Part shown: piece by piece, positions 14,688-17,878 of the stretch | How positions within the stretch are numbered: the first letter of the stretch is position 1 | Layout of the letters: each line of letters opens with the position of its first letter | From: an uncultured Clostridia bacterium | Lineage (GTDB): Bacteria > Bacillota > Clostridia > UMGS1883 | Assembly: GCA_947626145.1 (NCBI GenBank) | Contig: CANQRB010000001.1 | Coordinates: forward strand, 62,001 to 126,000 | Length of the DNA stretch: 64,000 nucleotides | Direction: 5' to 3' | The notes under the pieces: model-generated | What the model saw: only the letters and a program-made list of their open reading frames with translations | Databases searched by the model: none | Told to the model about the DNA's origin: nothing | Program-made: the position numbers and the translations under genes

Positions 14688-14716
14688 TTGAACAGTCCCC
14701 AAAAATGTGATATACT
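14688..14716 (+). promoter_or_regulatory. sigma-A promoter of the rpn-like gene
   Basis: TTGAAC, 17 bp, TATACT. It lies inside the upstream part of the open frame, which argues that translation begins after it, at GTG 14745. Confidence 0.7.
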
Positions 14717-14744
14717 ATATATTGCAACAAAGGAAGTGACGCCG

Positions 14745-15683
14745 GTGAAAGACCTTGACACGCTTTCAAAGGGATATATGTCCCAAAACGATATTTTTGC
14801 GGACGCTTTTAACTATTTGATATACGACGGACGACAGGTCATCAATCCCGAGCAGCTCAGCCCGCTCGATACGACCGAACTTGCGGCCCCATACGGCGAC
14901 AGCGGCGAGGCGGAGCCCGTGCAGAAATTTCGCGACGTATTGAAGTATGTTACGGCAATGACAGACGACAGAGCTGCGTACCTCGTGTTAGGCATTGAAA
15001 ACCAGCAAAACGTACATTTGGCTATGCCGGTGAGAAATATGCTCTATGACGCTTTGGAATACAGCCGGCAGGTCAGGGAGGCCGCGAGCCGCCATAGACA
15101 GAACAAAGAACACGGAAGCAGTGAGGAGTTTCTTTCCGGTTTCCATCGTGGAGATCGGCTCATTCCCGTTATAACCCTTGTCGTATACTTTTCCAGCGAT
15201 AAGTGGGACGGCCCGAGAAGCCTGTTCGATATGATGGAGATTAAGGACGACAAAATTAGGGCTTTGACGAACGATTATAAGATACATCTTCTCGCTCCGG
15301 CTGAAATGAGCGATGATGAGTTTGATAAGCTCCAGTCCGAGCTGGGCAGGATAATGAAGTATATCCAGTGTTCGACGGATAAAAATAGGCTCTCACAGCT
15401 TGTTGAGGCGGACGAAAGATATACCCACATCAGTAAGGCGGGAGCGCTGCTCCTGAACGAATGTACAAAATCAGAAATACATATTGACGACAGTAAGGAG
15501 GATGTAGATATGTGTCAGGCGATAAAGGATATTAAGGCTGATAGCATGGCCGAGGGCGTTATCAAAACCATAAAAGCCATAATGAAAAATATGAACTGGA
15601 CAGCCGAGCAGGCCGTTGCCGCGGCCGGTGTGCCCGAAAACGAACGTAAGGCGTATATAGCAAAGCTAACTACGGAAGCATAA
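14745..15683 (+). CDS. Rpn-family nuclease / PD-(D/E)XK putative transposase
   Basis: 312 aa from GTG 14745, chosen because AAAGGAAG lies 7-8 nt upstream and a promoter lies before it; the frame is open back to 14658. The nuclease core is recognisable by LGIENQQNVHLAMPVRNMLYDALEY, which resembles the E-x-Q and R/Y region of Rpn (Transposase_31, PDDEXK_2) proteins, followed by the VVYFSSDKWDGPRSLFDM segment. The C-terminal 57 residues (from MCQAIKDIKADS) form a separate helical module that has its own internal ribosome site and ATG at 15510, and is duplicated immediately downstream. Rpn proteins are RecA-independent recombination nucleases, some acting in phage defence. No transposon ends are seen. 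Confidence 0.75.
   Translation: MKDLDTLSKGYMSQNDIFADAFNYLIYDGRQVINPEQLSPLDTTELAAPYGDSGEAEPVQKFRDVLKYVTAMTDDRAAYLVLGIENQQNVHLAMPVRNMLYDALEYSRQVREAASRHRQNKEHGSSEEFLSGFHRGDRLIPVITLVVYFSSDKWDGPRSLFDMMEIKDDKIRALTNDYKIHLLAPAEMSDDEFDKLQSELGRIMKYIQCSTDKNRLSQLVEADERYTHISKAGALLLNECTKSEIHIDDSKEDVDMCQAIKDIKADSMAEGVIKTIKAIMKNMNWTAEQAVAAAGVPENERKAYIAKLTTEA
15498..15683 (+). repeat. Tandem duplication, unit 1 (3' end of rpn gene)
   Basis: 186-bp unit starting GAGGATGTAGATATGTG. Its partner is unit 2 at 15687-15884. Confidence 0.9.
15510..15683 (+). CDS. Candidate intragenic small protein (C-terminal module of the rpn gene)
   Basis: 57 aa, in frame with the rpn gene. A perfect AAGGAGG at 15495-15501 lies 8 nt before ATG 15510, ideal for translation initiation. 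In E. coli, rpn genes are reported to encode such internal C-terminal small proteins that inhibit the full-length nuclease; the same role is inferred here. Contains the residue run EQAVAAAGVPENERKAYIAKL, which reads as two helices. Expression is not shown by sequence alone. Confidence 0.5.
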   Translation: MCQAIKDIKADSMAEGVIKTIKAIMKNMNWTAEQAVAAAGVPENERKAYIAKLTTEA

Positions 15684-15686
15684 AAA

Positions 15687-15884
15687 GAGGATGTAGATAT
15701 GTGCCAGGCGATAAAGGATATTAAGGCTGATAGCCGAGCTGAAGGCCGAGCCGAGGGTGTTATCAAAACCCTAAAGGCCATAATGAGCAGTCTGCACCTG
15801 ACAGCCGAGCAGGCCGTTGCCGCGGCCAATGTGCCCGAAAACGAGCGTAAAGCATATATTGCAAAATTAACGGCTGAAGCATGA
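15687..15884 (+). repeat. Tandem duplication, unit 2
   Basis: 198-bp unit starting with the same GAGGATGTAGATATGTG, 3 bp after unit 1. It is 12 bp longer because of one inserted RAEG-coding unit; otherwise nearly colinear. Confidence 0.9.
15699..15884 (+). CDS. Free-standing duplicate of the rpn C-terminal module
   Basis: 61 aa. It starts with the same MCQAIKDIKADS and ends with the same EQAVAAANVPENERKAYIAKL as the end of the rpn gene. It begins 15 nt after the rpn stop, with AGAGG 8 nt before its ATG. It differs from the upstream copy mainly by an extra four-residue RAEG unit and by a few substitutions around SSLHLT versus KNMNWT. No nuclease domain is present. It is probably a dedicated antitoxin-like or modulatory protein, or a recent decay product; the open frame and kept ribosome site favour the former. 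Confidence 0.6.
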   Translation: MCQAIKDIKADSRAEGRAEGVIKTLKAIMSSLHLTAEQAVAAANVPENERKAYIAKLTAEA

Positions 15885-15888
15885 AACG

Positions 15889-15915
15889 TCCCCCGCGGCA
15901 TTTGCCTGCGGGGGA
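15889..15915. terminator. Hairpin between convergent rpn-tail and YolD-like genes
   Basis: TCCCCCGC pairs with GCGGGGGA around an 11-nt loop. A T-rich stretch follows only after about 20 nt, so strength is uncertain. Confidence 0.55.
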
Positions 15916-15932
15916 TGCTTTAGCATTTACTT

Positions 15933-16361
15933 TTATTTTTTGAAAAGCTCACACTCTATTGAAATAATATCATTGATCGGTATCTCGCTTTTATCCGTAA
16001 AAATCAGGCGGCGTTTATGTTCGTCAATTCTTCTGAGCTTCTTAAACACCGTCACATATTCACCGCCATCCTTAAGCTCGTCCGGCTTAAAATATGTGAC
16101 GGTGACCTCAGGCCGCTCGGATATTACCTCGGCCAAGGCGCTCAACTTACGATTGAGTTCGTCCAATTCGTCGTCGCCTAAACTGATTTTGCTGCCGGTC
16201 AGGCGAGCGGTCTCTTCGACAGCGTCATCATAGCCCACGAGGGCCGCAAAGGGCGAAAACTGCCCCGCCCGGTTGTGCGCGGACATATGCGGATGCTTTT
16301 CGGAGCGGTGGTGCGGCAGATTGATTATACTTTCGTAACTGTGTTTGTCGCCGTTATTCAT
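15933..16361 (-). CDS. YolD-like protein paired with Y-family polymerase
   Basis: 142 aa. The stretch HPHMSAHNRAGQFSPFAALVGYDDAVEETARLT is typical of the small YolD-like proteins encoded beside UmuC/DinB polymerases in Firmicutes. A beta-rich C-terminal part ends DKSEIPINDIISIE, again typical. It begins 14 bp after the polymerase stop codon, so they are co-transcribed. Molecular function unknown; association with translesion synthesis is by context. Confidence 0.8.
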   Translation of the reverse strand: MNNGDKHSYESIINLPHHRSEKHPHMSAHNRAGQFSPFAALVGYDDAVEETARLTGSKISLGDDELDELNRKLSALAEVISERPEVTVTYFKPDELKDGGEYVTVFKKLRRIDEHKRRLIFTDKSEIPINDIISIECELFKK

Positions 16362-16375
16362 GCGCTTCCCCTCCC

Positions 16376-17878
16376 TTACTCGTGGTGTCCGCCGATTTGA
16401 GCGTTCCTTTGGGCGGCGGTGGCTCCCTCCTCCAAGTTCATGCCCTTTAGTACGGCGTTTTTGCCGTATTTTTTCTTTATGCTCAAGACCGCGTGCTGGA
16501 GCTTTTTCTCTCTTTCGAGAACCTCGCCGTCCGAAGCGCCCAAATCCGAAAGAAAGCTGAGCTGTTCCCCGGCCGAGGCCTCGCTCTCCGGCACGACGTT
16601 GCAGGCGGTGACATTTAACCTCCGCACCGACAGCCGCTTGTCCACGATTTTATCGAACAGTTCCATAACTGCGGCGGTAATGAGCTTTGTTGAGGAGGTC
16701 TGCTTTTTTAAATTTATCGTGCCGAGAGCGTGTTTGGGAACCTTGCGGCCGTAACGGTCGGTTGTCACCTCACCGCTATACGCTTTGGCAAGTTGCGGAT
16801 CTTTAAGGTTTTCAATATCGTAGCCCACGGTCAGCACCATTTGGTCGGTGACGAGACCCTTTTCCACCAAGTCCAGCACAAGCAGATCCGTCATCTCCTT
16901 TACGACCAGCCGCGCTTTCTCAAAAGGATAAGGCTGCTGAAGCACCTGACCGGAGCTTATGCTGTTTGTATCGGGACGATATGCCTTTACCTCGGCAATG
17001 GTCGTGGGTTCCCAGCCCCAGGCGTGGTCTATCAAAAGCTCCGCGTTCACGCCAAAGTGCTTATACAAAAGGTCCTCATTGTAGTAATCTCTCGGCCCGC
17101 CCACGGAACAGAGGGCCACATCGCCCATGGTAAAGAGACCCAGTTTCTCCAGCCTTTTCGCGGTGCCCCGCCCGACCCGCCAAAAATCCGTCAGCGGCCG
17201 ATGGTTCCATAGTTCACGCCGGTAGCTCATCTCGTCCAGCTCCGCAATGCGGACGCCGTTTTTGTCTGCGGGAATGTGCTTGGCGCGAATGTCCATTGCC
17301 ACTTTGGCAAGATACATATTCGTACCTACGCCGGCGGTGGCAGTTATGCCGGTATTTTTCAGCACGTCGAGGATGATTTTCATCGCAAGCTCCCGTGACG
17401 ACAGGCCGTAAAGCGTGAGATAATCGGTCACGTCCATGAAAACCTCGTCTATCGAGTATGCGAAAATGTCCTCCGGCGCCACGTATTTCAGGTAAATGCT
17501 GTAAATTTTTGTGCTGTATTTTATATACAGCGCCATCCTCGGAGGCGCGACAATATAGTCGAGAGCAACGGCCGGGCGGGAGCGTATCTCGTCGGCGTTG
17601 CAGGATTTTTCGGTGAACAGGCCGCCCTTCAGCCTGTGGAAGCGTTCGTCATTTATGGACTTTGCTTTTTGTACTACTTCAAACAGGCGGGGCCGTCCCG
17701 GCACGCCGAAGCCCTTGAGCGCCGGCGAGACAGCAAGACATATTGTTTTTTCGGTGCGGCTTTGATCTGCGACAACAAGGTTTGTAACGAGAGGGTCGAG
17801 GCCACGCTCCACACACTCCACCGAGGCATAAAACGATTTCAGGTCAATAGCGATATAACATCTCTGTTTTTCGTCCAT
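16376..17878 (-). CDS. Y-family DNA polymerase (UmuC/DinB-like, UvrX type)
   Basis: 500 aa translesion polymerase. Catalytic acidic residues appear in IAIDLKSFYASVE near residue 11 and in AYSIDEVFMDVTDYL. A helix-hairpin-helix region (FWRVGRGTAKRLEKLGLFTMGDVAL) and a little-finger domain follow. Longer than typical DinB, as in the UvrX/UmuC group of Firmicutes. Followed by the YolD-like gene. No clear LexA/DinR box is seen in the 138-bp upstream gap. Confidence 0.9.
   Translation of the reverse strand: MDEKQRCYIAIDLKSFYASVECVERGLDPLVTNLVVADQSRTEKTICLAVSPALKGFGVPGRPRLFEVVQKAKSINDERFHRLKGGLFTEKSCNADEIRSRPAVALDYIVAPPRMALYIKYSTKIYSIYLKYVAPEDIFAYSIDEVFMDVTDYLTLYGLSSRELAMKIILDVLKNTGITATAGVGTNMYLAKVAMDIRAKHIPADKNGVRIAELDEMSYRRELWNHRPLTDFWRVGRGTAKRLEKLGLFTMGDVALCSVGGPRDYYNEDLLYKHFGVNAELLIDHAWGWEPTTIAEVKAYRPDTNSISSGQVLQQPYPFEKARLVVKEMTDLLVLDLVEKGLVTDQMVLTVGYDIENLKDPQLAKAYSGEVTTDRYGRKVPKHALGTINLKKQTSSTKLITAAVMELFDKIVDKRLSVRRLNVTACNVVPESEASAGEQLSFLSDLGASDGEVLEREKKLQHAVLSIKKKYGKNAVLKGMNLEEGATAAQRNAQIGGHHE

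Follow-up and report, generated by a model that had tools for sequence, protein, structure and literature searches.

A free-standing, off-register copy of the C-terminal module behind a clostridial rpn nuclease gene, and its possible role as a donor of nuclease tails

Rpn loci (COG5464/PF04754) are gene-within-gene toxin-antitoxin systems whose nuclease cleaves DNA and protects against phage. Rpn genes make a toxic full-length nuclease, RpnL, and a C-terminal antitoxin, RpnS, translated from an internal start, which binds and blocks RpnL (Zhong et al. 2023, PMC10327210). A Clostridioides difficile gene cloned in E. coli likewise expressed an internal RpnS (PMC10327210). RpnS contains 4-aa repeats whose number varies, and according to a rule shown for E. 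coli RpnC only, RpnC-S no longer blocks RpnC-L when one repeat is added to either of them, and blocks it again when the repeat is added to both (PMC10327210). Separate downstream RpnS genes have been reported, ypaA after rpnE and another copy after rpnC, as well as loci where the N-terminal domain is fused to the region of the downstream rpnS; the downstream RpnE-S of E. coli was detected as a protein (PMC10327210). The literature describes these downstream copies without explaining why Rpn loci keep them.

The window analysed here is a stretch of 64,000 nucleotides from an uncultured gut Clostridia bacterium (contig CANQRB010000001.1). Its rpn locus is formed by a full-length gene (L), an internal small protein made of the C-terminal S module of L (iS), and a free-standing downstream copy of this module (dS; Table 1). 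Since internal RpnS, repeats and downstream copies were already described, this anatomy is not new. E. coli K-12 rpnE/ypaA likewise has the internal start, a downstream unit beginning at a ribosome site directly after the stop codon, and a downstream copy that exceeds the internal one by exactly one 4-aa unit. However, rpnE belongs to another Rpn subfamily, with KLEG/WQEG repeats and another tail, and its tails are long-separated (about 72% identical DNA) whereas those of the window are 82% identical, in a patchy way. E. coli rpnC also associates a full-length gene carrying an S module with a downstream rpnC-S, the repeat regions of the two being different, but with a 68-nt spacer, another start region and an unrelated tail sequence. 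The rpn gene of C. difficile is a Gram-positive representative with a translated internal C-terminal protein, for which a downstream copy is not described (PMC10327210). Finally, in g25, a genus of another Clostridia family where matches were found in 9 of 12 species, Rpn genes of a second family (B) are followed by one to three free RpnS-like modules with varied repeat numbers (L120-L150). These differ from our locus by the nuclease subfamily, by a spacing of mostly 47 nt and by two tail types that are shuffled.

Table 1. Features of the rpn locus, in positions of the window
Feature	Position	Strand	Basis or remark
Candidate sigma-70-like promoter TTGAAC-17-TATACT, 5' of the L gene	14688..14716	+	pattern scan, consensus match only
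Ribosome-binding site AAGGAAG of the full-length L gene	14730..14736	+	sequence
rpn L gene, GTG start, 312 aa	14745..15683	+	PD-(D/E)XK-type nuclease and C-terminal S module
Internal ribosome-binding site AAGGAGG, first bases of repeat unit 1	15495..15501	+	sequence
Repeat unit 1, 186 bp	15495..15680	+	repeat finder
iS, internal RpnS-type small protein, 57 aa, in frame with L	15510..15683	+	sequence
Repeat unit 2, 198 bp, tandem copy of 15495-15680	15684..15881	+	repeat finder
Ribosome-binding site AGAGG of dS, weaker than AAGGAGG	15686..15690	+	sequence
dS, free-standing RpnS-type protein, 61 aa	15699..15884	+	sequence
Extra 4-aa unit RAEG in dS versus iS	15735..15746	+	sequence comparison
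33-nt block coding MSSLHLTAEQA, in dS	15783..15815	+	identical to family-B Rpn tails, contigs C11 and C23
Candidate transcription terminator, hairpin then U-rich tail, just 3' of dS	15882..15941	+	RNA fold

The L gene most likely starts at the GTG, not as the 341-aa ORF opened by a TTG. As the preliminary description had proposed, L belongs to the Rpn family: it matches PF04754 (YhgA-like, Rpn group) with 25.5 bits for a cut-off of 21, and D63, E84 and Q86 (counting from the lysine that follows the GTG) are invariant among 10 clostridial homologues in a PD-(D/E)XK-like pattern. The Pfam match and this D/E/Q set together identify an N-terminal PD-(D/E)XK domain of the YhgA/Transposase_31 group. 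The AlphaFold2 model of L (pLDDT 82) ends with one long helix and two shorter ones (residues 255-282, 286-292 and 297-310), i.e. the predicted S fold, and these three helices coincide with the S module. With the nuclease domain, Foldseek gave weak best matches to restriction endonucleases and to NucC, no E value being under 0.001; a PDB sequence search with L and dS gave no relative, and neither NCBIfam nor PADLOC yielded a usable model. A phage or plasmid origin was considered and rejected: the full-length relatives found there are only distant, with no close one. Facing the rpn locus in convergent orientation, a YolD-like gene (PF08863 match just under the cut-off) and an adjoining UmuC/DNA polymerase IV-like gene occupy 15933-17878 of the minus strand.

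The AAGGAGG of the internal site lies 8 nt before the ATG at 15510, which is in frame with L, exactly as first described. The promoter scan (4 matches for 2.2 expected) found no sigma-70-like promoter within the L gene 5' of iS. Among the divergent clostridial Rpn genes that we examined, whose tails are unrelated, most have at the equivalent place a strong Shine-Dalgarno sequence a few nt before an in-frame ATG. Nearly all L genes of family B keep GCGAGGTG, and likewise GCGAGGTGCA(T/C)GATATA, before the internal ATG. Because equivalent sites are kept in divergent clostridial and family-B genes, the internal ribosome site is not a matter of chance; this conservation, together with the published work (PMC10327210), sustains the intragenic C-terminal small protein of the preliminary description. 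Soon after the S start come 4-aa repeats, numbering 1, 2, 5 and more among paralogues and relatives. By analogy with the family, iS would bind and silence L.

The tandem duplication reported earlier, 186 bp then 198 bp, starting at the ribosome site and separated by 3 bp, is recovered by the repeat finder at the same coordinates, and its second unit indeed holds a free 61-aa gene preceded by AGAGG. This is a separate S-module gene directly after an rpn gene, as in the ypaA type; the sole separation between the units is the TAA stop codon at 15681-15683. Their identity, 89% in the first 63 nt and 82% in the 149 nt that follow, is far beyond chance, and their difference in length corresponds to one insertion of 12 bp, i.e. 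the 4-aa unit RAEG, so that L and iS have one unit (MAEG) and dS two. Between dS and iS, dN is 0.098 for a synonymous rate of 0.452 (dN/dS about 0.2), and dS modelled alone is helical (pLDDT 77.5), its first helix being broken near the repeat. On this evidence, and on that of equivalents elsewhere, dS is a real coding gene. The hairpin that follows it is strong (-27.7 kcal/mol, z -5.9), although a simple terminator scan did not pick it up at 15882-15941; as this hairpin and its U-rich tail come directly after dS, dS is probably the last gene of the transcript. The 33-nt block of dS that is identical to family-B tails differs at several positions from iS and from the paralogue on contig C8, so that the SSLHLT segment may have come from family B by a short conversion or may be an older state that was retained.

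The genome of the window contains three family-A genes, in the window and on contigs C8 and C7, and four family-B genes, on C4, C2 and, for two of them, C11. The nuclease part of the C8 paralogue is 95% identical to that of L, and its S module is longer by four 4-aa units. Behind the family-B gene that ends C11 (L062) there is again a second S module, whose unit number differs and which continues at the start of C23 (L063); this split is an assembly break inside a tandem repeat. On a contig of an uncultured Clostridia MAG (L013), the upstream neighbour is the same as for our locus (orthologous locus, L013:2900-3490). Its nuclease domain is frameshifted and for the most part deleted, while the start of the S module is intact; the module, in internal position, has two units and an SSLHLT tail and resembles the window dS, a resemblance that is no more than suggestive, because the locus is cut near the contig end.

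A search of the whole class with family A turned up no downstream copy of that family beyond the genome of the window, and the clostridial examples beyond that genome all belong to family B. In a sister species (G007, contig C15, L071:989-2148), a family-B nuclease gene is followed by a free module of another tail type, without repeat. The first helix of this module is the same and its tail is wholly different (KLVFRLLGKNKSDEDIMDTLDISRETLAQLKAEYAKA); the KLVFRLLGKNKSDEDIMDTLDISRETLAQLKAEYAKA tail is the built-in tail of other Rpn genes of the same genus as L071. Arrays of g25 may be seen at L150:811-1761, L135:1082-1779 and, on the reverse strand, L120, 253-953. Some distal copies are frameshifted (L130, L131, L149 and the last copy of L150). 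The locus L147:1148-4575 (G216:C6) aligns in tandem four Rpn nuclease genes, whose built-in tails have 4, 2, 3 and 3 repeat units, and one free S module.

If dS were kept as the inhibitor of its neighbour, its repeat number should match that of the adjacent L more often than by chance. At two-copy rpnE loci of E. coli the numbers match in none of 9 distinct haplotypes, for 0.89 expected by permutation, and in the two-copy rpnC loci that we read the downstream and internal repeat regions also differ. Among the 14 g25 loci with an intact pair, 2 match for 2.36 expected; for tail types, 8 match for 7.6 expected. An active avoidance of equal numbers was also considered and discarded, 0/9 and 2/14 being no different from chance. 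The repeat numbers of dS and of its neighbour thus show neither matching nor avoidance. In the window, dS does not have the unit number of the adjacent L, the equality on which inhibition depended in the published RpnC test, and its number equals that of none of the family-A nucleases of its own genome. Taken with the published repeat rule, this chance-level match predicts that most downstream copies, the window's included, would not block the adjacent nuclease. It should be said that mismatch at chance level also fits a neutral drift of the repeat number, without any switching role.

The downstream proteins are nevertheless conserved. For 21 intact downstream modules of g25 compared with the nearest internal module, we counted 70 synonymous and 18 non-synonymous changes (pN/pS 0.06), which indicates strong purifying selection on these proteins; so low a value may owe something to frequent exchanges between these modules and the internal ones. 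In E. coli the tails of dS are nearly invariant, with 104-108 of 108 nt.

Evidence for an exchange of tails comes from g25, i.e. from a genus other than that of the window. The mean identity of the nuclease parts is 0.827 for genes of the same tail type and 0.822 for genes of different types: by this comparison, the type of tail does not depend on how similar the nuclease domains are. Among 23 nuclease pairs with an identity of 93% or more, the tail type is common to 12 and the repeat number to 4, a pattern that points to tails shuffled freely among near-identical nucleases. Of the single-copy rpnE loci of E. coli, 7 have a tail that can be recognised; in all 7, L is fused to a tail of the downstream type, and one of them (L081) combines the downstream tail with repeat units otherwise found only in internal copies. 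These single-copy loci could in part be ancestral and not products of deletion.

From these data, the best-supported reading of the window dS is that of an off-register S variant, probably translated. More completely, we propose, with a probability of about 0.5, that the locus is an Rpn L/S locus accompanied by a diverged dS of different specificity, which would not pair with the adjacent L and would act as a tail donor. L would be a PD-(D/E)XK nuclease whose C-terminal helical module is also made alone, as iS, and iS would silence it as in the rest of the family. With an array one unit longer and a different second-helix segment, dS is predicted not to pair with this L; it would persist as a translated variant and as a donor cassette. 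Recombination between iS and dS at their near-identical starts would delete 189 bp and give L at once the dS tail and a new internal antitoxin. The most plausible value of dS would then lie in its different specificity, exerted in trans or as a new tail of L after recombination.

Other explanations have to be weighed against this one. The preliminary description saw in dS a second inhibitor of the same nuclease, L being held by an internal and an external antitoxin. Such a backup would account for a dS that keeps its fold, its ribosome site and its frame, with the low dN/dS relative to iS, and the downstream RpnES of E. coli is indeed synthesised (PMC10327210). But one extra repeat is precisely what breaks the inhibition of L by S in the published test (PMC10327210); the window dS has this extra repeat and a changed segment besides, and matched pairs are not in excess among the 9 E. 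coli and 14 clostridial loci. We therefore hold the backup role to be unlikely, and the other suggestion made at that time, that RAEG and the SSLHLT segment could alter specificity, fits the data better. It would be just as unlikely, in our opinion, that dS serves as a stand-alone immunity gene against other Rpn nucleases, either paralogues of the genome or transferred alleles. Several Rpn genes do coexist per genome, dS is under purifying selection in relatives, its second-helix segment is common to the family-B tails of its own genome, and the free module of L147 shares repeats and tail with another L of the array. On the other hand the window dS fits no family-A repeat number and its first helix is unlike that of family B, and in g25 only 5 of 21 dS find in the same genome an L of equal repeat number and tail.

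There is also the possibility that dS is a neutral by-product of tandem duplication, its repeat number drifting and the copy being on its way to loss. The frameshifted distal copies and the repeat match at chance level go in this direction; the pN/pS of the intact copies relative to the nearest internal one, the near invariance of the E. coli tails, and the frame and ribosome site kept by the window dS go against it, and we consider this explanation as quite improbable. An extension of the donor role to the free S modules behind rpn genes in general, which would be switchable specificity cassettes replacing, by recombination at the shared S start, the nuclease tail along with the antitoxin built into it, is put forward only tentatively, with less confidence than our proposal for the window locus, though it seems to us less doubtful than any of these alternatives.

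The comparison suggests that downstream RpnS copies are unmatched to the neighbouring nuclease, that their proteins are conserved all the same, and that nucleases exchange their tails. As the exchanged segment is common to both partners, toxin and antitoxin could diversify in one step, an idea that can be tested. If free S modules are indeed such cassettes, arrays of two or three of which occur in some Clostridia, the toxin would always change its specificity with its own inhibitor already matched.
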